Assembly: GCA_023301705.1 (NCBI GenBank)
Contig: JALZUE010000019.1
Coordinates: 1-64,000, forward strand
DNA: 64,000 bases
Direction of reading: 5' to 3'
Origin: Alteromonadaceae bacterium
GTDB lineage: Bacteria; Pseudomonadota; Gammaproteobacteria; Enterobacterales; Alteromonadaceae
Shown: piece by piece, positions 14,731 through 59,666 of the stretch
Layout: every line of letters starts with the position of its first letter
Position numbering within the stretch: position 1 is the first letter of the stretch
Notes under the pieces: model-generated
What the model was told of the DNA's origin: nothing
The model's database searches: none
Seen by the model: only the letters and a program-made list of their open reading frames with translations
Made by a program: the position numbers and the translations under genes

Positions 14731-15618
14731 ATGGCTGAAATTAAAACTAAATCATCAATTATTAATGCTATGACTGTTGACGTAGAAGACTATTTTCATG
14801 TGTCAGCATTTGAAAATATAATTACACCTAAAGACTGGTTTTCTTGTCAACCAACAGTTGATTATAATACACGTAAAATACTTGATCTTTTTGCTAAACA
14901 TAATACAAAAGGGACTTTCTTTATTTTAGGTTGGGTTGCAAAAGCTTTTCCTGAATTAATTGCAGAAATTGCAAATCAAGGTCATGAAGTCGCTAGCCAT
15001 GGTATGAATCATCGTAGGGCTAGTACTCAAACATATGATGAATTAAAAGAAGATATTCAGTCAAGTATTAGCCTATTAGAAGATATAACTAGTCAAAAAG
15101 TATTAGGGTATCGTGCACCAAGCTTTTCAATTGGTAAACAGAATGAATGGGCATTTGAGCTTTTAGTAGAATTAGGTATTTTATATAGTTCAAGTACTTA
15201 TCCTATTGAACATGACTTATACGGAACGCCTGATTGGCCTCGTTTTGTTCATACACGTAAAGAAGGTATTATTGAAATACCTGTGCCTACGATACAAGAT
15301 AAAGGTGTAAATACGGGTATTGGTGGCGGAGGATACTTTAGGTTATATCCTTATTGGCTTTCTAATAAGCGTATTAATCAATATTTATCTACAGAGTCTG
15401 CGCCTTATAGTTTTTATTTTCACCCTTGGGAAATTGATCCTAATCAACCGCGAGTCAAAAAAGCATCGTTTAAGTCTAAGTTTAGGCATTATATTAACTT
15501 AGGACGAATGGAAGGGAAAATTGAACGGTTGTTAATTGATTACCATTGGTCGACCATGGCTGATGTTTATTTAGATGGAACTGACATTAAAGCAAGTTTG
15601 TTAAGAGAACCAAGCTAA
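14731..15618 (+). CDS. XrtA system polysaccharide deacetylase (TIGR03006/DUF3473 type); start re-set to 14731
   Basis: MTVDVEDYFHVSAFE, GTFFILGWVA, EVASHGMNHR, GYRAPSFSI, FYFHPWEIDP. Confidence 0.93.
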   Translation: MAEIKTKSSIINAMTVDVEDYFHVSAFENIITPKDWFSCQPTVDYNTRKILDLFAKHNTKGTFFILGWVAKAFPELIAEIANQGHEVASHGMNHRRASTQTYDELKEDIQSSISLLEDITSQKVLGYRAPSFSIGKQNEWAFELLVELGILYSSSTYPIEHDLYGTPDWPRFVHTRKEGIIEIPVPTIQDKGVNTGIGGGGYFRLYPYWLSNKRINQYLSTESAPYSFYFHPWEIDPNQPRVKKASFKSKFRHYINLGRMEGKIERLLIDYHWSTMADVYLDGTDIKASLLREPS

Positions 15619-17150
15619 TGAATCAGTGGCTAAACAAATTTTCTTTGATGTTAGTGTTAGCCTTAAGTTCGTGGTTTTTAGTTTTTTATCAGGGTATTGT
15701 AACCGCAGCCAATATTTGGGTAATTTCAGATATTTATAATCACTGCTTACTTGTTTTACCCTTCAGTTTATATTGTATTTATCGCAAACGTCACCTATTA
15801 CATTATTCAGATCTAAAGCCTTCTCTACTGCCTTTACTGCCTTTGAGCGTTATTTTATTTGTACAAGTATTTGCGACTATTGGCGACATTAATATTTTTA
15901 TGCACATTGCTACTTTTAGTGCATTACCCCTAATTATTTGGCTATGCGTAGGACACCGCATCGCTAGAATTTTAGCCTTTCCTTTATTCTTTATATTATT
16001 TGCTATTCCTATTGGTGATGAATTAATTCCTTACTTACAAGAGTTAACAACAGATATTGCAGTGCCTTTGTTACAGCTTTCTAATGTGCCTATTTATCGT
16101 AATGGTTTATATTTAGACATACCTGAAGGGCGCTTTTTAGTGGCCGAAGCATGCTCAGGTATTAGTTTTTTAATTAGCTCAATTGTTTTTGGTTTTTTAT
16201 ATGCTTATATTTCATTTTCATCGATAAAAAAACGTATCATATTTATTGCTGTTTCTATTATTGTACCTATTTTGGCTAATGCTATTCGTGTTTATGGAAT
16301 TGTCCTAACCGGACATTTAACTGATATGAAACATGCTGTTGGTGCTGATCATCTAATTTATGGTGGTGTGTTTTATACAATAGTATTATTTATTTTAATT
16401 GTTATTGGTGAAAAGTTTCGTGATAAAAATTACTCTATTTCTGATGGTCAAACATCAAGAAGTTATTTAAACGGAACTAAACCAGGTTTGTTCAAGCTAT
16501 ATATACCTATCAGCTTATTGATAGGAGCAATGATAATTCAACAAGCTTGGTTATATAACATTTCAAATATTAATACGCCAATATTTACAATACCTAAATC
16601 CGCTTTATTATCAAATGTTAATCGAGAAATACGTTATCAAGATGAGAAAATACCTGATTGGAATGCAAAGTTTAATGACAGTGATATTGAAGTTACTGGC
16701 GCGATAACTACGCCATTTATTTCAATTAGCCCTGTTAATGATAACTCTGCAATTATTAATACATTTATTTCATATTATTCAGGCACCGGAGCTGAACTTA
16801 TATCGTCAGCACATCGTTTGTTCGATACTAACAAGTGGGCTCAAGTTTCCAGTAAAAATAGAATCATTAACCAACAGCCAGTAACGTTATCATATATTGC
16901 ATCAGCTAAAGGGCAGCACCGTTATTTATTACATTGGTATGAGATAAATGGTAAACATTTCAATAGCACGCGTAATGCTAAGCTTTATCAAGCCTATTTA
17001 TCATTATTAGGTCAACAGGCTAGTGGTGTGAAGGTTATACTAACCACTAATTCACAAGAGCTTACCGAAAAAGCATTTGTCATGTTTGTTAATGATAATA
17101 TCGATGCTATACGATATAACTTATATACGGCACTACAAAAAAATTCATAA
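15618..17150 (+). CDS. xrtA: Exosortase A fused to C-terminal EpsI domain
   Basis: Multi-TM with catalytic EACSGISF, NAIRVYG, DHLIYGGVFY (Cys-Arg-His); C-terminal EpsI-like extension. Confidence 0.94.
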   Translation: MNQWLNKFSLMLVLALSSWFLVFYQGIVTAANIWVISDIYNHCLLVLPFSLYCIYRKRHLLHYSDLKPSLLPLLPLSVILFVQVFATIGDINIFMHIATFSALPLIIWLCVGHRIARILAFPLFFILFAIPIGDELIPYLQELTTDIAVPLLQLSNVPIYRNGLYLDIPEGRFLVAEACSGISFLISSIVFGFLYAYISFSSIKKRIIFIAVSIIVPILANAIRVYGIVLTGHLTDMKHAVGADHLIYGGVFYTIVLFILIVIGEKFRDKNYSISDGQTSRSYLNGTKPGLFKLYIPISLLIGAMIIQQAWLYNISNINTPIFTIPKSALLSNVNREIRYQDEKIPDWNAKFNDSDIEVTGAITTPFISISPVNDNSAIINTFISYYSGTGAELISSAHRLFDTNKWAQVSSKNRIINQQPVTLSYIASAKGQHRYLLHWYEINGKHFNSTRNAKLYQAYLSLLGQQASGVKVILTTNSQELTEKAFVMFVNDNIDAIRYNLYTALQKNS

Positions 17151-50935: not shown

Positions 50936-51046
50936 TTGCCAATATACTCAAACGGTAATGAAAGTTTTTTAGATGTAAAACACATAATGTACTGGAGTGC
51001 GGTTAACAATCTCTAGATAAAAGATAACTTAATAAGGATGCTATTA

Positions 51047-53830
51047 ATGACTCAGGTTAATAAGTTACTAAAGGTTTTAGTAACCACTTCAATGGTACTT
51101 GGAAGTTATGCATGTACAGATACTAAAACGATTGAAGAGTATCAAGCACAAGCACAATCATTTATTCAAAATAATGATCCAAAAAGTGCGATAATAGCAT
51201 TGAAAAATGCTAATGCATTAGATCCAAGTAATGCTTCTTTGCGTTTTGAATTAGGGGTGTTGTATCTAGAGCAGGGTGATTATTTAAGTGCTGAAAAAGA
51301 ATTAGAAAGATCTCAATCATTAGGTTTTGATAGCGCCCAAGTATTACCTGAACTTGTTGAAGTTAAATATAAACTAACAAAGTTTGAGGATGTTTATACG
51401 CTGATTGAAAACTCATCGATATTATCTGATAGTGCACAAATTAAAGTATTAACTTTTGCCGGGCTATCGGCTTTAGCTCAGCAAGAGCGCTCTAAAGCTG
51501 TCGATTATATTGATCAAGCTAATTCTGTGACTGGTGAATCTACTTACGGACAAATTGGTAAAGCTTATCTAGCGACATCAGAAAAAGAGATTGAAGAGGC
51601 ATTAATTCTTGTTAATAGTTTAATTGCTTATGCACCAAAGATCACAGAAAGCTATTTATTAAAAGGCTATTTATTACAAAGTACTAAGTCTTATATTGAA
51701 GCAGCCGAAGCATTTGAAAAGTATGCTCAATTACGCCCAAGAGAACTACAAGTACAGTTTTTTATTGCTCAAAATTATATCAGCGCTCAATTAATTGATA
51801 AAGCTGAACCAATTGTTAATGCATTAGTCAAGCAATTAGATAACCATTCGTTAGCCAATCAAATGAAAGCTCAAATATCTTTTCAACAAAAAGATTATGA
51901 ACAAGCAAAGCGTTATGGTGAAAAGGCTTATCAACTTAATAGAAACTTGTCTGTATCAGCTGTTATTGCCGGTATGAGTGCGTATTATTTAGAAGATTAC
52001 CAACAAGCTTATAATCTATTAATTAAAGTAGATAACTTAACAACGACACAGCAAAGTATTAATAAAGTATTAATAGAATTACAACTTCGTCTTGGTTATG
52101 AAAATGAAGCTCTTCAGAGCTTGAATACATTAATTGATAACGGGTATGCAGATACGGCATTACTTACTGCAGCTAGCAGTAAATTGTTAAACACAGGCAA
52201 CAAGACTGCTGCTCGAGAGTTATTACAAGAATCTATTAAATTAAATACTGATAATGTAGAACAAGTAATCAATCAAGGTATTTTAAAGTTAAAACTTGAT
52301 GATTTAAGTGGTATTGAAACACTTGAAAAAGCATTAGAGCTTGATCCAACATCGATTAAGGCTGAATCAAGTTTAGCTTTAGGGTATTTAAATAATAAGC
52401 AGTATGACGAAGCTACTGCTATAGCCCAAAAATGGCAAGGTGAGAAGGATAAAGAAATACAAGGTCTATTATTAGAAGCGGAAGTTGCTCATAAAAGAAA
52501 ACAAATAGTAAGTGCTAAGTCTTTGTTAAATAAAGTACTTGAAAAAGACGATAAAAATATTTCAGCATTGTTTCGTTTAGGAGTTTATAACCACCAAGCA
52601 GAAGATTATGCCAATGCATTTTCATTTTACCAGAAAGTAATTAACATTGATCCTCTGCATGTTAATGCAACTAAAGGTATTATTACACTTTCTTATAAAG
52701 ATACGAATCTTGCTGATAAAGCACTTACACTTTATCAAGACAAAAGTAATGAACTCCCAGAAAATGATGTTTTAAAGTTAAATCTAGCATATTTGCATAT
52801 TACAAAAAATCAAACAGACAAAGCTCTAGAGTTACTTTTAGCGCTTAAAAAGTCAGTATCTAATGGCAATGCTGAAGTTGATTTAGTTATTGGTGATGTA
52901 TATGCACTAAAAGAAGAATGGCAACAATCACTTAAGTTTTATAGCTCAGTAACTGAGAAAAAGCCAAATAGCTTAATTGCAGCAACTAAATTATATGAAA
53001 ATTATTTAAAGGTTGGCGATTTAAAGCGTGCATTGATAGAAGTTGAGCGTATTTCACTGGTCTATCCTAATAGCCTTGGTTTACTCTTAACGAAAGTTAG
53101 TTTTCAGTCATTATTAAATATAAAACCTAGAGCTAGCGATATAGAGTTATTACAAAACAATCCGAATAGTAGTGAGCATTGGGTGCTTAATAGAGCTTTA
53201 GGTAACCAAGCATTTTCTAATGGAGATAATACGTTAGCAAAAACACTGTTTGAAAAAGCGTATAATGTAGAACCTTCCAGTGTTAATGTCATCGCTTTAT
53301 CAAAAGCGATAGGAAGATCTGAAAGCATTAATAGTACTATTCGCGTACTGAATGAGCATCGCTCAGCTGTTAATGCAAAAGACATACGTGTAAATGCTAT
53401 GCTAGCGAATGCATATTTACAGATAAAAGATTTAAAAAGTGCAGAGTCAACTTACCTTGATATTCTTCAACAAACGCAAGATAGTGTTTTAGTGTTAAAT
53501 AACTTGTCATATATTTATCATGAGTTTAACAATAAAGACAAGGCATTAAATTATGCAGAACTAGCTATAGCGAAAGCACCAAATGTCATTGCTGTAATAG
53601 ATACGTATGTTCAAGCCTTATTATTGAACCAACAACCTGCATTAGCGATTAAACAGTCAGATAAAATTTTAGCTATATCACCAGGTAATGTTGATGCATT
53701 ACTTCATAAGGCTAAAGCTTATATTCAACAGAATAATAAAGAACAAGCAATGATCATATTGAATGGAATCGATAGTGATACGCTTGAAATTGAAGAAAAA
53801 GTTAAAAAATTAGTCAATAGTATTAATTAA
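51047..53830 (+). CDS. prsT: PEP-CTERM system TPR-repeat protein PrsT (TIGR02917-type)
   Basis: ~927 aa of TPR repeats after a signal/lipoprotein-like N-terminus (MVLGSYAC); YQAQAQSFIQNNDPKSAIIALKNA; adjacent PEP-CTERM substrates. Second ATG at 51047 is better spaced from AAGGA. Confidence 0.9.
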   Translation: MTQVNKLLKVLVTTSMVLGSYACTDTKTIEEYQAQAQSFIQNNDPKSAIIALKNANALDPSNASLRFELGVLYLEQGDYLSAEKELERSQSLGFDSAQVLPELVEVKYKLTKFEDVYTLIENSSILSDSAQIKVLTFAGLSALAQQERSKAVDYIDQANSVTGESTYGQIGKAYLATSEKEIEEALILVNSLIAYAPKITESYLLKGYLLQSTKSYIEAAEAFEKYAQLRPRELQVQFFIAQNYISAQLIDKAEPIVNALVKQLDNHSLANQMKAQISFQQKDYEQAKRYGEKAYQLNRNLSVSAVIAGMSAYYLEDYQQAYNLLIKVDNLTTTQQSINKVLIELQLRLGYENEALQSLNTLIDNGYADTALLTAASSKLLNTGNKTAARELLQESIKLNTDNVEQVINQGILKLKLDDLSGIETLEKALELDPTSIKAESSLALGYLNNKQYDEATAIAQKWQGEKDKEIQGLLLEAEVAHKRKQIVSAKSLLNKVLEKDDKNISALFRLGVYNHQAEDYANAFSFYQKVINIDPLHVNATKGIITLSYKDTNLADKALTLYQDKSNELPENDVLKLNLAYLHITKNQTDKALELLLALKKSVSNGNAEVDLVIGDVYALKEEWQQSLKFYSSVTEKKPNSLIAATKLYENYLKVGDLKRALIEVERISLVYPNSLGLLLTKVSFQSLLNIKPRASDIELLQNNPNSSEHWVLNRALGNQAFSNGDNTLAKTLFEKAYNVEPSSVNVIALSKAIGRSESINSTIRVLNEHRSAVNAKDIRVNAMLANAYLQIKDLKSAESTYLDILQQTQDSVLVLNNLSYIYHEFNNKDKALNYAELAIAKAPNVIAVIDTYVQALLLNQQPALAIKQSDKILAISPGNVDALLHKAKAYIQQNNKEQAMIILNGIDSDTLEIEEKVKKLVNSIN

Positions 53831-53956: not shown

Positions 53957-54018
53957 TTGTATGGACAAGTATACGAAATGAAATTTAATTATTGCCCACA
54001 GTGGTAAATGGAGTATTT

Positions 54019-54774
54019 ATGTTAAACTTGAAAAAAATATTTGCAGCAGCAACTTTAACTGTGGCTGCAATGGCGTCAGCTAATGCATTTGAAGTATCTT
54101 TAGATAACTTTCAATACGAGCCAAACGTTAGTATTGCTGTTGATGGTGATACTAACAGTATCTTATCTTTAATTGATCCTACAATTACAACGCCTCTTTT
54201 AGAAGCTACAGCAACAGCACAAACAATTAACCCATTAATCGCTGCAGATGTTGATTTTACATTAACATTGATTAGTGATGAAAATGGCGGTGAAACTGAT
54301 TTTTCTGATTTACTTAGTATTTCTAGTGTAGCTGCTGGAGCAGGCTCTTTGACCTTTAGTGAATCTGCTGGTGTTCAAGCTGAATTAGAAGTAGTTTATA
54401 GTGGTACTAATAACGCAGCGTTAGATGCTTCGCCTTTCACTGCTTTTTACTTTGATCTTTCTGAAGATTCAGGTGATGAAGGTTTTCAGTTAGCTTTAGA
54501 GTTTTTAGACACTGACGGTAACTCAGAAGTACTTAAAGTTCTTGCAAATGAATTAAATGTAGTTGATGAGCGTGTGACAGTGCCTTACACTGAAATTTCA
54601 GATTTAGTTAACCTTACATCTTTAGCTTCAATATCAGCAACAATTTCATCACCAGGTGTATTTGCTGACTTAATCTTAGTTGACCTTGGTTTTATTAACG
54701 TTCCAGAGCCTACTACTTTAGCTATTTTTGGTTTAGCTCTTTTAGGTTTTGGTGTACGTCGCCGTAATGCATAA
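54019..54774 (+). CDS. PEP-CTERM sorting domain-containing secreted protein, paralog A
   Basis: Signal peptide MLNLKKIFAAATLTVAAMASANA; C-term VPEPTTLAIFGLALLGFGVRRRNA. Confidence 0.95.
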   Translation: MLNLKKIFAAATLTVAAMASANAFEVSLDNFQYEPNVSIAVDGDTNSILSLIDPTITTPLLEATATAQTINPLIAADVDFTLTLISDENGGETDFSDLLSISSVAAGAGSLTFSESAGVQAELEVVYSGTNNAALDASPFTAFYFDLSEDSGDEGFQLALEFLDTDGNSEVLKVLANELNVVDERVTVPYTEISDLVNLTSLASISATISSPGVFADLILVDLGFINVPEPTTLAIFGLALLGFGVRRRNA

Positions 54775-55032: not shown

Positions 55033-55767
55033 ATGTTGAATGTAAAAAATGTAATTACAGCTGTATTATCATCGATAGTAATACTTTCTGTAAATGCAAA
55101 TGAAATAGTGCTTGATAGTTTTGATTATGATCCAAATATCAGTATTGCTGTTGATGGAGATACAGATAGTGTATTAAATTTGTTAAGCCCTCCTGTTGTG
55201 ACGCCATTAGATGTTGCTACGGCTTCTACACAAACGACTAACTCACTCATTGCTGCTAACGTAGATTATACATTATCGTTGGTTAGTGATAGCGATGATG
55301 TTGGTGATAATTTAAGTATTTCTTCAGCGAATTCGGGAGGTGGTACACTTGTTTACAGTGAATCAGCCGGAATTCAATCAACATTAGAGCTGTCCTATTC
55401 TGGGGTTGGCGGTACATTATTAAATATATCTAACTTTACTGGTTTTTATCTTGATGTTGTATCTGGCGTAGAAGGTTTTTCACTTGATTTGGCTTTTACA
55501 GATATTAATACCAGTGAAGGTAGTATTTTTGTTGACGGTAATTCGCAAGATTTATCAGGAGATAGAATTGTTATAGACTTTACAGAACTTGAGGATGTTG
55601 TTGATTTGAGCGTTCTGACGTCTGTATCTGCAACAATATCATCGCCAGGGCTTTTTGCAGATTTAATTATTACTGAAATTGGCTTAGTGAATGTTTCTGA
55701 ACCTACGACATTAGCCATTTTTGCATTGATTTTATTAGGGTTTGGTGTTCACAGACGTAATGTCTAA
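55033..55767 (+). CDS. PEP-CTERM sorting domain-containing secreted protein, paralog B
   Basis: Signal peptide MLNVKNVITAVLSSIVILSVNANE; C-term VSEPTTLAIFALILLGFGVHRRNV; extended similarity to paralog A (SIAVDGDT). Confidence 0.93.
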   Translation: MLNVKNVITAVLSSIVILSVNANEIVLDSFDYDPNISIAVDGDTDSVLNLLSPPVVTPLDVATASTQTTNSLIAANVDYTLSLVSDSDDVGDNLSISSANSGGGTLVYSESAGIQSTLELSYSGVGGTLLNISNFTGFYLDVVSGVEGFSLDLAFTDINTSEGSIFVDGNSQDLSGDRIVIDFTELEDVVDLSVLTSVSATISSPGLFADLIITEIGLVNVSEPTTLAIFALILLGFGVHRRNV

Positions 55768-55795
55768 ATGTAAATAAAAGCAATAAACATATATG

Positions 55796-55824
55796 AAAGC
55801 CCGGATAGCTGTAGAGGGCTTTTA
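55796..55824 (+). terminator. Probable Rho-independent terminator
   Basis: AAAGCCC-ggatagctgtaga-GGGCTTTT downstream of paralog B. Confidence 0.6.
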
Positions 55825-55872
55825 ATATTTTGATAAACTTGGTTTATTAAACATAATAAAAAATATTCATTG

Positions 55873-56970
55873 TTATGGTAATAGCAACTCTGACAATGGT
55901 TTTCTTATAGATCTTGAACTTGCCACTGATGAACGTCCATAACGTGCCATATAAACACTATTGAATGTGTTTTTTTCTCCAATAAAATACTTTAATTTGT
56001 CATCCATTTTTTTTACATTTTTCATTGCTTTGGTATTTTGACTAAATTGTATATTCTTTCGAACCATTTCTGCGAACATTATAGGTGTGTATTCAGGCTG
56101 AAAGCCTAAGCCTAATTTTTCAAATGTTAGCCATAAACGCATAACGACTTGTCCACTTTCGACAAATTCTTCAAGTGTTTCAATCGGTTTATTGTAAGTT
56201 AGTAAGAAGTGACCACTACAACGGATTGATGTACAAAAATCCATTAAAAATTTAGCCCAGACAGTACCAGCTAAATATTTTTCTATGAAGTGGAAACGTG
56301 ACCAGTCAGCTAATGCCCATTTAGTTAATGCAGTTGTAATTGGATCAATTCCTAACGATTTTGGAGGAATTTTTGTTGCACTAAACTGCTCATTACCTTT
56401 ATGCCAATCTATAACTTTTGAATGAACACGGTAACCTTCTTCCATGATATAGCGAGTAGTGGAGTTACCATATAATAATTTTCCTATTTTGAATTTTTGA
56501 GACGTTTTTTCAAAAAAATGTATAGAAAATTCGTTAGGTATACAGGTTAATAGTTCATTTTTTTCTATTAGTGTAAGCGTTTTTAACCCCATAGGTTTAC
56601 GCTGAACAGAACGGCTTTTAATTGATGTAAATAATGCGCTTTTATTTTTGGTTGTGGGGATTAGTTGCGCATTAAAAATAATTGTTTGCTCGGCACTTTG
56701 AGTTAGCTTTGTATATTGAACTTCATAACCGAGCTCTAGCGCTGTAATGTTTAATGTTTCAAATAAAAAGCCAAGGCTCAGCCAAGTTACATGACCATTG
56801 ATATCGTAAACCATCCAGTCAGACTGATCTTTACAATGAATTTCGAAACTCGTTTCTGTAAGTAGCTTAAATCGCCATGGTTGGATATTATCAGGGCTTG
56901 GACACCAACGAGCTTCTTCTAAGATTTTTAGAACTAAATTATGTGGGTTTGATGAACTATTGTTTTTCAT
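55873..56970 (-). CDS. Nitroreductase-like flavoprotein
   Basis: ILEEARWCPSPDNIQPWRFKLL (nitroreductase N-terminal motif), LGFLFETLNITALELGYEVQY. Confidence 0.8.
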   Translation of the reverse strand: MKNNSSSNPHNLVLKILEEARWCPSPDNIQPWRFKLLTETSFEIHCKDQSDWMVYDINGHVTWLSLGFLFETLNITALELGYEVQYTKLTQSAEQTIIFNAQLIPTTKNKSALFTSIKSRSVQRKPMGLKTLTLIEKNELLTCIPNEFSIHFFEKTSQKFKIGKLLYGNSTTRYIMEEGYRVHSKVIDWHKGNEQFSATKIPPKSLGIDPITTALTKWALADWSRFHFIEKYLAGTVWAKFLMDFCTSIRCSGHFLLTYNKPIETLEEFVESGQVVMRLWLTFEKLGLGFQPEYTPIMFAEMVRKNIQFSQNTKAMKNVKKMDDKLKYFIGEKNTFNSVYMARYGRSSVASSRSIRKPLSELLLP

Positions 56971-56994
56971 AGCTAAAAACCAAAGAATATACGT

Positions 56995-57858
56995 TTATTT
57001 ATCATTTTTTAACACTACTCTTTTGGCAACATAAAACATAATTCGTTGTATAGGGTTTCTATTGCCCCAAGGACGCCATGTTTTCACCATTTTATTTTTA
57101 TATGCGTCAAAATGAATACCGCTAGGAGCTGTGATTAATTTACCCCTACCTAATAATATTTTTAATACATAAGATGCAGCAGCTCCTCCACAGAGTTTGA
57201 CTCCCATAGGTAATGAAGGCGCTTTTTGAGCAATAAAATCACTAGTAGAAGGGTCAACTAAATAACTTCTTTGCATTAATGATGGGCTTAAACCAATTAA
57301 AAACTTTACTAATTGTTCGTTTTCAGTTTTGCAATCTTCAAAACGAAAATATTCTTCATAATTCATACTGTCAGGTGTAAAGCATAATAAAGCTACCCCC
57401 ATACCTATTGGAGCAGCAGTCACTACCGGAATATTTTTTTCATAACATTTCTTATACACTAGTTTTCTTGCTTTTAATGCAAAATAATCGAGGCTGTCAA
57501 TGTATACATCGACATCAGTTAGAAATTCATCAATATTGCTTTCGTTAATACCTTCTGGAAAACTATTAACTTGTGCTTCAGGGTTGATGTCATAAATTAC
57601 TTTTTCCATTACTTCAACTTTAGGTTGATTAATGGTCGACATAAAAGCACCAGCTTGACGGTTAAAATTATGTACTTCATATTCGTCAAAGTCTGATATT
57701 TGAAATTGACAAATACCTAATCGAGCTAACGTTACTATATGTTCACTGCCAACACCGCCCGCGCCAGCAGTTGCTATTCGTTTTGTTTTAAGCGACAACT
57801 GTTCATCTTCTGTTAGCCACCCAATGTTACGAGAAAAAGCATTTAAGTAATTAAACAT
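56995..57858 (-). CDS. ThiF/E1-like adenylyltransferase
   Basis: RIATAGAGGVGSEHIVTLARLGICQFQISDFDEYEVHNFNRQ; DVYIDSLDYFALKARKLVYKKC; VTAAPIGMG. Confidence 0.92.
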   Translation of the reverse strand: MFNYLNAFSRNIGWLTEDEQLSLKTKRIATAGAGGVGSEHIVTLARLGICQFQISDFDEYEVHNFNRQAGAFMSTINQPKVEVMEKVIYDINPEAQVNSFPEGINESNIDEFLTDVDVYIDSLDYFALKARKLVYKKCYEKNIPVVTAAPIGMGVALLCFTPDSMNYEEYFRFEDCKTENEQLVKFLIGLSPSLMQRSYLVDPSTSDFIAQKAPSLPMGVKLCGGAAASYVLKILLGRGKLITAPSGIHFDAYKNKMVKTWRPWGNRNPIQRIMFYVAKRVVLKNDK

Positions 57859-57878
57859 TCAAAGTCCTTATGATTAGT

Positions 57879-58700
57879 CTAAAGCTGTTCATGTTCAAGC
57901 TGCTTAGCAACTTCTTTTTCTATTTCAACAAATAAACTTTTAAAGCCGTGAGTTAAACTGCTGTGAAATATTTCGGCATTAATATAGTAAGGCGCTCTTT
58001 TACCGTGGTATTCAATAGGTTCACCAATCTGAATAAACTTAATGCCAACAAATTTCATACTACGTGCTAATTTTGGTTCCATCATAACGTAAGCGTGCTT
58101 CATACCAGACTTTAATGCCATGCTTGCACTGGTCATATATAAGCCAATGGCAATAAATGGAAAACAGCGCAATTCAGTTTCAGAATAAACATTTTCACTT
58201 ATAACACCTGTTGCTGAACCTTTAAATTTATCATCTTTACGGCGACGAAATTCAGGTTTAACCGCTAAGCGTGAAATTTCACAAATTTCTTCTCGTTTAA
58301 AGAGTGCAGGATCAAACTCATCATGTTGAATCGAATCTTTACAATAATGTTCGATAGGCAGAAGTTCTTCAGGTGAAGATGAGGTCACTAAGCGAACACA
58401 ACTAGTGTATTGGTCAGAGGGAATATGTTTGATTAGTGAAAATATTGAATGTTTGTCGAAACTGTCTTTTTCAAGTTTATCATTTGTACAAGGCAGGAAG
58501 CTTAACTCATCACAATATACTTGGTGACGAATTTTATGAACTTCAGTGAGCATTGCTTCAGTGTTTGCTATTTTAGGCTGTAAGAAGGTAATGAAATGTT
58601 CAGCTATATTGTTTGCATCTTTGTTTACTTTTACAGATACAATTTTTTTAGTGACATCACCGATGATAGGTGTATTTAATAGTTTTTTCCTCCAACTCAT
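57879..58700 (-). CDS. PEP-CTERM/exosortase system-associated N-acyl amino acid synthase-like acyltransferase (TIGR03694-type; start re-set to 58700)
   Basis: MLTEVHKIRHQVYCDELSFLP autoinducer-synthase-like N-terminus, EICEISRLAVKPEFRRRKDD, ARSMKFVGIKFIQIGEPIEYHGKRAPYYI. Confidence 0.9.
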   Translation of the reverse strand: MSWRKKLLNTPIIGDVTKKIVSVKVNKDANNIAEHFITFLQPKIANTEAMLTEVHKIRHQVYCDELSFLPCTNDKLEKDSFDKHSIFSLIKHIPSDQYTSCVRLVTSSSPEELLPIEHYCKDSIQHDEFDPALFKREEICEISRLAVKPEFRRRKDDKFKGSATGVISENVYSETELRCFPFIAIGLYMTSASMALKSGMKHAYVMMEPKLARSMKFVGIKFIQIGEPIEYHGKRAPYYINAEIFHSSLTHGFKSLFVEIEKEVAKQLEHEQL

Positions 58701-58898
58701 TATTACCTCTACACATGCTATGGTTATTATGTGGAATTCAGTCAAAAGGTTGGTTAGTTCCCGTATTCCTAACAATAGAGTATAGTACTAAATTAAATAT
58801 TCGCGCATAACTAAAATTATAGATAGAATGTGAGCACGTAAGTTTATGATTAAACATACTAAATTTCTAGTTGTGATTTTGAAGATGAGAGAGTTACA

Positions 58899-59666
58899 TT
58901 GAAAATATATCGTTATTTTTTATTCATGGGTCTTATACTCATTCATGTTAATAACTCATACGCGTTACCATTAATTCAAGTTATTAAAGAGGTTAAACCT
59001 TCAGTTGTGGGTATTGGCACTTATACGCCTATAGCTCAACCTAAAAGTAAGTTAGCAGGTACAGGCTTTGCTGTTGCAAATGGGCAATATATTATTACTA
59101 ATGATCATGTATTACCTGTAACGCTCAATGAGGAAATTAATGAACGAATCATTGTTTTTGTGGGCAGTGGTCAGCAGGTAACATTACGGGATGCGACAGT
59201 AATTGATCGCAGTAAAGATCATGATTTAGCATTATTAAAAATTTCTGGTGATAAATTAGCTGCTATGAGGTTAGCAGAAAAATCGTTTATTGATGAAGGA
59301 ACATCCATTGCGTTTACTGGTTTTCCTATCGGTGCTGTTTTGGGGATATACCCGGTAACACACCAAGGTATTGTTTCTGCGGTAACACCTATTATTATAC
59401 CTGTTGATGATTCTAAAAGTATAAGTATTAAAATGTTAAAACGTTTAAGAGATCCGTATATGGTCTACCAGTTAGATGCAGTTGCTTATCCAGGAAACAG
59501 TGGCAGTGCTTTATATAGAGCAAATACCGGAGAGGTTGTTGGTGTGATTAATAAGGTATTTGTACAAAGCACTAAAGAAGCTGTGATATCGGCTCCAAGT
59601 GGCATCACTTACGCTATTCCTGTTAAGTATGTGCATGAGCTATTAGAAAAGAATAATATTAAATAA
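58899..59666 (+). CDS. Secreted trypsin-like serine protease
   Basis: Signal peptide; catalytic triad TNDHVLP / DHDLALLKI / YPGNSGSALY. Confidence 0.87.
   Translation: MKIYRYFLFMGLILIHVNNSYALPLIQVIKEVKPSVVGIGTYTPIAQPKSKLAGTGFAVANGQYIITNDHVLPVTLNEEINERIIVFVGSGQQVTLRDATVIDRSKDHDLALLKISGDKLAAMRLAEKSFIDEGTSIAFTGFPIGAVLGIYPVTHQGIVSAVTPIIIPVDDSKSISIKMLKRLRDPYMVYQLDAVAYPGNSGSALYRANTGEVVGVINKVFVQSTKEAVISAPSGITYAIPVKYVHELLEKNNIK

Follow-up and report, generated by a model that had tools for sequence, protein, structure and literature searches.

Why should genes that could make and activate an N-acyl amino acid lie in a locus for exosortase-dependent protein sorting? The question is raised by a three-gene operon in a stretch of DNA from an Alteromonadaceae bacterium (assembly GCA_023301705.1, contig JALZUE010000019.1, positions 1 to 64,000; hereafter the window, meaning the whole 64,000 nucleotides). 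To our knowledge, it is not settled what PEP-CTERM proteins become attached to on sorting, or why an acyltransferase should be present in exosortase loci. Here we report that two of the three operon genes, those for the acyltransferase and for a ThiF-type adenylating enzyme, travel across many bacteria with the exosortase protein-sorting system. Judging from homology, we put the probability at roughly 80% that the operon encodes a pathway from an N-acyl amino acid to an acyl-oxazolone, of the kind known as Oxz, Tyz or Trz. The chemistry of such operons is already known, and the nesting of ThiF within the exosortase-bearing genomes is the part worth following.

Three enzyme families in one operon

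The operon consists of three open reading frames (ORFs) on the minus strand (57879-58775, 56995-57858 and 55873-56970), separated by 20 and 24 bp. In 5' to 3' order they encode a TIGR03694 acyltransferase, a ThiF protein and a protein of the nitroreductase superfamily:

57879..58700, minus strand: TIGR03694 N-acyltransferase, first in the operon and a putative N-acyl amino acid synthase (TIGR03694 match)
56995..57858, minus strand: ThiF/E1-like adenylating enzyme of the PRK08223 family, putative ATP-dependent azlactone-forming cyclase (NF006077)
55873..56970, minus strand: Acg-like flavoprotein of the nitroreductase superfamily, putative O2-dependent alpha,beta-desaturase (PF00881, NF047509)

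This layout, and the assignment of the products to acyltransferase, ThiF/E1-like and nitroreductase-like families, had been proposed in an initial annotation made from the sequence, and both the ORFs and the matches to all three families agree with it. The acyltransferase gene that it placed at 57879-58775 is also real, but its TTG start at 58775 is less likely than an ATG at 58700, which is probably the true start and gives 273 residues; the sequence AGAGG-TAATA-ATG leads into the shorter frame, and with either start the family match sets in well past the first residue.

The acyltransferase scores 246 bits against TIGR03694 (curated cut-off 112) in a genome that also carries an exosortase, which places it in that family, and the Pfam models Acetyltransf_5 and FeeM match it as well. 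Its AlphaFold model (predicted local distance difference test, pLDDT, 85) matches LasI, TofI, BjaI and FeeM (2g0b) at 12-16% identity, so that profile and model matches alike point to the LuxI/FeeM-fold N-acyl amino acid synthase of an acyl-oxazolone pathway. FeeM is itself an N-acyl amino acid synthase. Residues R58, E77, D79, D82, R103, E141 and R144 are invariant in 25 relatives, and in order and approximate spacing they match what we take to be the LuxI-family catalytic set; R58 to R103 were also aligned with acyl-homoserine lactone synthases by HMMER.

The ThiF protein scores 391 bits against NF006077/PRK08223 (curated cut-off 266) and 143 bits against PF00899. Its GxGGVG motif, R67, K80 and D124 are conserved and align with Escherichia coli ThiF, and the ATP site needed by a ThiF-like cyclase is thus intact. 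From the alignment, we take D124 to correspond to the Asp of TrzS whose change to Ala abolished cyclisation. The models for Rv1355c (67 bits) and PRK14851 (274 bits) match below their cut-offs, which were set for whole fusion proteins. PRK08223, still named 'hypothetical protein' in NCBIfam, becomes a candidate azlactone-forming cyclase.

The flavoprotein matches PF00881, the Acg family NF047509 and the models for Rv1355c and PRK14851; the C-terminal half of the Rv1355c model runs along 358 of its residues at 67 bits. Its profile matches the Acg structure PDB 2ymv (E 7e-16), as does its predicted model (E 4.5e-12, template modelling score 0.72), and Acg is the closest solved relative named for TrzS too (PMC12856293). 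An Acg-type flavin oxidase next to ThiF or joined to it is a feature of the known pathways: the two genes are adjacent here and fused in 11 of 80 named loci, mostly beside an acyltransferase, as in OxzA and OxzB. The suggestion in the initial annotation that ThiF and nitroreductase domains are fused in proteins of the Rv1355c type is borne out by the family model and by PMC12856293. Family membership, predicted folds, active-site conservation and operon structure are observed features of the locus, as is the conserved co-occurrence described below.

A putative acyl-oxazolone pathway

In the Tyz system, TyzA N-acylates tyrosine or phenylalanine, the ThiF protein TyzB cyclises the product with ATP, and TyzC, a flavin oxidase of the nitroreductase superfamily, desaturates it with O2 to yield C12:0-tyrazolone (PMC10404671). 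TrzA and the fused protein TrzS (Rv1355c) carry out the same reactions on tryptophan; in TrzS, mutation of the ThiF Asp to Ala abolishes product, mutation of a flavin-site Arg impairs desaturation, cyclisation must come before desaturation, and the ring hydrolyses readily in acid or methanol (PMC12856293). OxzA and OxzB of Pseudoalteromonas rubra make acyl-tyrazolones and phenazolones (de Rond et al. 2021, as cited in PMC10404671). Operons of N-acyl amino acid synthase (NAS), ThiF and nitroreductase genes are present in producers of thalassotalic and kyonggic acids, a similar cluster in stieleriacine producers, and the two genes other than the acyltransferase are absent in a Massilia making only saturated products (PMC12479983).

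Because the same set of activities is known from Tyz, Trz, Oxz and these NAS/ThiF/nitroreductase clusters, we assign the operon to chemistry of the acyl-oxazolone type; all of the reactions, which amino acid and acyl chain are used, and what the end product is and does are what we infer from that likeness. The TIGR03694 enzyme would N-acylate an amino acid, probably tyrosine or phenylalanine, with a fatty acyl group. ThiF may then use ATP to adenylate the free carboxylate; closure through the amide oxygen would give a five-membered azlactone (oxazolone) ring, into which the Acg-like flavoprotein is predicted to introduce an alpha,beta double bond using FMN and O2. The released product would be either the acyl-oxazolone itself or the N-acyl dehydro-amino acid formed by its hydrolysis, for instance a lipid resembling thalassotalic acid. 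The initial annotation had suggested a pathway tailoring N-acyl amino acids, with ThiF activating a carboxylate and the flavoprotein oxidising the product, and by homology it was right. Its description of the ThiF substrate as unknown and of the system as under-described is overtaken by the homologous pathways solved in 2021-2025 (PMC10404671, PMC12856293; de Rond et al. 2021, as cited) and by the same trio proposed for thalassotalic acids (PMC12479983), and a ubiquitin-like partner, which it expected, is not called for with a ThiF protein of the acyl-oxazolone kind.

The closest parallel in layout and habitat is the thalassotalic cluster of Thalassotalea sp. PP2-459, also a marine gammaproteobacterium, in which the same three kinds of gene (NAS, ThiF BI291_02100 and nitroreductase BI291_02095) form an operon (PMC12479983). 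Compared by description rather than sequence, its genes overlap or lie <10 bp apart, against 20 and 24 bp in the window, and its exosortase context is not discussed in that paper. OxzA/OxzB, compared by architecture, share the acyltransferase, ThiF and nitroreductase domains, the latter two being fused in OxzB and separate in the window. TyzACB (Rv2336, Rv2337c, Rv2338c) and TrzAS (Rv1356c, Rv1355c) have the three activities, with ATP-dependent cyclisation and O2-dependent desaturation demonstrated (PMC10404671, PMC12856293); the Rv1355c model matches both the ThiF protein and the flavoprotein of the window distantly (67 bits each), and exosortase is unmentioned in PMC10404671 on the Tyz system. 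The stieleriacine cluster of the planctomycete Stieleria maiorica likewise combines NAS, ThiF and nitroreductase genes, with exopolysaccharide genes upstream and, as noted by Kallscheuer et al. 2020 (PMC7293339), a PEP-CTERM gene inside (PMC12479983); it differs in an extra methyltransferase and several NAS genes. The exosortase-associated TIGR03694 acyltransferases share with the window the acyltransferase family and the exosortase link, which is credited to Craig, Cherry and Brady 2011 in citing papers whose passages make no reference to ThiF. The operon would extend acyl-oxazolone/N-acyl-dehydrotyrosine biosynthesis to another marine lineage.

Co-occurrence with the exosortase system

The order sample comprised 248 genomes, with TIGR03694 in 47, a PRK08223 ThiF above cut-off in 32 and an exosortase in 67. 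Each of the 32 ThiF genomes has TIGR03694 and an exosortase as well, and an exosortase is likewise present in all 47 acyltransferase genomes. The acyltransferase and ThiF genes lie at most 5.1 kb apart in 29 of the 32, and where ThiF and exosortase share a contig they are within 54 kb in 22 of 23 cases. Chance neighbourhood was rejected as an explanation, the acyltransferase-ThiF arrangement recurring across genomes. In the class sample of 274 genomes an exosortase is present in 25 of 26 ThiF genomes, compared with 84 (31%) overall, and in only 23 of 35 TIGR03694 genomes; in this sample ThiF is therefore the stricter exosortase companion. The wider point of the survey is that, in the class sample, exosortase keeps closer company with the carboxylate-activating step than with the acyltransferase. 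Such genome counts are phylogenetically correlated, so that Fisher p-values overstate the evidence, and the order sample shares some species with the survey of named loci, whose counts are not independent of it.

Two divergent ThiF proteins below the PRK08223 cut-off (G087:C2:838691-839440 and G103:C88:13454-14242) come from genomes without TIGR03694 or exosortase matches; their genes adjoin an oxygenase-like and an ArgC-like gene, and they probably belong to a different system.

The window itself is a PEP-CTERM/exopolysaccharide locus, with the following features around the operon:

15618..17150, plus strand: exosortase, EpsH/XrtA type (PF09721, 213 bits at G000:C19:15672-16412)
51038..53830, plus strand: PrsT tetratricopeptide-repeat lipoprotein of the XrtA/PEP-CTERM system (TIGR02917, 518 bits)
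53992..54774, plus strand: PEP-CTERM protein (PF07589, 34 bits; found at C19:54700-54765 in the whole-genome search)
55033..55767, plus strand: PEP-CTERM-type protein with variant motif VSEP, convergent neighbour (C-terminus VNVSEPTTLAIFALILLGFGVHRRNV; weak NCBIfam PEP-CTERM match)
58899..59666, plus strand: trypsin-like (HtrA-type) protease, divergent from the operon (PF13365)

The exosortase lies about 41 kb from the operon. The PEP-CTERM genes reported beside the operon in the initial annotation were found, two in number; since they are on the opposite strand they are neighbours outside it. By clustering, the gene with the VSEP motif is a paralogue of the other, and it falls below Pfam detection. 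The source is an 80%-complete metagenome-assembled genome of 2.89 Mb with one gene each for TIGR03694, PRK08223 and exosortase. Scanning 55700-59000 for promoters and terminators turned up no signal exceeding that of shuffled sequences. An inverted repeat, AAAGCCC...GGGCTTT at 55790-55825, in the stretch separating the nitroreductase gene from its convergent PEP-CTERM neighbour, resembles a shared terminator and was not reported by that scan.

Proximity to PEP-CTERM genes recurs elsewhere. The survey of named loci covered 75 ThiF loci whose ORF is intact. A PEP-CTERM gene lies within about 8 kb in 53 of them, and 39 have one in the same-strand run. The acyltransferase is present in 56 of the 75, PrsT in 53 and the divergent trypsin-like protease in 41; 28 have the flavoprotein and 22 a patatin-like lipase. 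Across the 30 ThiF genomes searched there were 331 PEP-CTERM matches (mean 11 per genome), and in at least 25 of the 30 one lay within 6 kb of ThiF, where simple arithmetic (11 x 12 kb in about 4.3 Mb) gives about one genome in 30 for random positions; the comparison is partly confounded by the PEP-CTERM richness of the locus itself. The regular expression used for the motif misses some true cases (VPEPES in locus L177, for example), and the counts made with it are therefore lower bounds. The proximity persists with the exosortase on another contig (G205, G235, G173, G079 and G153), and throughout the G009/G034/G055 clade a PEP-CTERM gene lies between ThiF and the acyltransferase.

A stable core and an optional flavoprotein

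The neighbourhood survey that the initial annotation had called for found that the trio is not unique to this genome, the outcome that would have counted against the proposal. Many genera have it, in some cases with ThiF and nitroreductase fused into one protein next to the acyltransferase. The trio as a conserved unit was nevertheless rejected: the flavoprotein profile matches 11 of the 32 ThiF-bearing order genomes, in ten of which the gene is linked, always beside ThiF, the other being one weak unlinked match. A profile was needed here, a single-sequence search with the flavoprotein of the window having reached only six genomes. The acyltransferase and ThiF are the stable core, with ThiF following the exosortase, and the flavoprotein is optional.

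The flavoproteins beside ThiF form two groups only 16-20% identical, on which ground a single flavoprotein lineage was rejected; the association with ThiF has therefore formed, or been kept, more than once. On a ThiF tree of 97 sequences flavoprotein presence changes 18 times, an approximate figure from a quick tree with many weak forks. The nearest named ThiF relatives are from Catenovulum species and Endozoicomonas sp. G2_1. A flavoprotein occupies the same slot in Catenovulum agarivorans and in Endozoicomonas sp. G2_1, and a PEP-CTERM gene occupies it in C. maritimum and C. sediminis.

Product and role

Several observations weigh against an acyl-oxazolone pathway. The Rv1355c model covers only residues 9-148 of the ThiF protein, at 67 bits, and similarity to the biochemically proven enzymes was gauged through family models only. 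The flavoprotein is missing beside ThiF in 22 of the 32 ThiF-bearing order genomes, and the conserved function is therefore not the desaturated oxazolone; six of the 26 ThiF-bearing class genomes have no TIGR03694 gene; and no oxazolone was seen in the producers of N-acyl dehydrotyrosines (PMC12479983). From this last point follows a tentative but possible alternative, that the real product is the free N-acyl (dehydro-)amino acid and that ThiF acts only transiently: activation and ring closure, followed by hydrolysis, would give the flavoprotein a cyclic intermediate on which to carry out the desaturation. The isolation of dehydrotyrosines from trio-bearing Thalassotalea, Massilia and Stieleria (PMC12479983) and the order of events and fragile ring in TrzS (PMC12856293) are in keeping with it. 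That same fragility, however, could make the missing oxazolones an extraction artefact, and the retention of ThiF in most genomes without the flavoprotein is left unexplained. At the other extreme, ThiF could be a true E1 enzyme activating the C-terminus of a ubiquitin-like, sulfur-carrier or other protein (a PEP-CTERM protein, for instance), unrelated to the acyltransferase product. The fold and ATP site are common to ThiF, MoeB and E1 enzymes, and PEP-CTERM genes are close by, but we consider this very improbable: no ubiquitin-like or sulfur-carrier gene was found among the neighbour genes read, the translated protein has no CxxC zinc pairs, C138 is the single invariant Cys of the family alignment, and ThiF is tightly linked to the acyltransferase and repeatedly fused with the flavoprotein. 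An E1/ubiquitin-like system was rejected on the lack of both partner gene and zinc cysteines.

A further explanation keeps the first two reactions of the acyl-oxazolone pathway and differs in the fate of the product: the acyltransferase and ThiF would be accessory to the PEP-CTERM/exosortase system, an N-acyl amino acid, in its reactive azlactone or acyl-adenylate form, being passed to a nucleophilic group of a PEP-CTERM protein, of an exopolysaccharide or of a membrane lipid, with the flavoprotein as optional tailoring. The nesting of ThiF within the exosortase set in both samples, the PEP-CTERM genes near ThiF or between it and the acyltransferase, the persistence of this association across contigs, the approximate 18 changes of flavoprotein state and the patatin-like lipase in 22 of 75 loci are all consistent with such a role. 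Co-occurrence, however, is no demonstration of chemistry, and a shared biofilm or exopolysaccharide regulon would give the same pattern; the products of the characterised relatives are released small molecules (PMC10404671, PMC12856293, PMC12479983); the exosortase works on exported proteins and ThiF is presumably a cytoplasmic enzyme; and among the matches listed, five of the 30 genomes have no PEP-CTERM gene near ThiF. We regard it as doubtful for this operon. Its generalisation, that the acyltransferase and PRK08223 ThiF of exosortase-bearing proteobacteria make an azlactone serving that system, such as a lipid group on sorted proteins or exopolysaccharide, and that oxazolone and dehydrotyrosine products are an offshoot where a flavoprotein joined, is unlikely. 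A defined two-enzyme reaction with a predicted reactive product gives a direct test of both exosortase questions. The open literature yielded no paper linking ThiF or oxazolones to exosortase: exosortase and ThiF share one paper, as do oxazolone and PEP-CTERM, but each word is mentioned once and the titles point to other subjects. It yielded none joining PEP-CTERM, nitroreductase, acyltransferase and exosortase; most subscription papers were outside its scope, which makes this weak evidence of novelty.

Other recurrent neighbours

The trypsin-like protease gene, which in the window diverges from the operon, adjoins the acyltransferase/ThiF operon in 41 of the 75 named loci and in 21 of 33 order loci, and is a candidate extra component. 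A patatin-like phospholipase gene often precedes the acyltransferase in the same direction (L104, L082, L088-L090, L067, L071 and others) and is absent from the operon of the window. Of the eight acyltransferase loci without ThiF, six contain a FAD_binding_4 (PF01565) oxidase of about 540 residues a few genes from the acyltransferase (L093:11893-13527, with the same cluster in L094, L095, L097, L099 and L100), and no ThiF locus does; it may offer another way of oxidising the same N-acyl amino acid. Beside the acyltransferase in L088 (3891-6756), L093, L095 and L096 stand genes for an exosortase A system-associated acyl-CoA ligase (TIGR03098) and a pyridoxal phosphate-dependent decarboxylase (TIGR03099), which suggests further lipid or amino acid chemistry in these loci.

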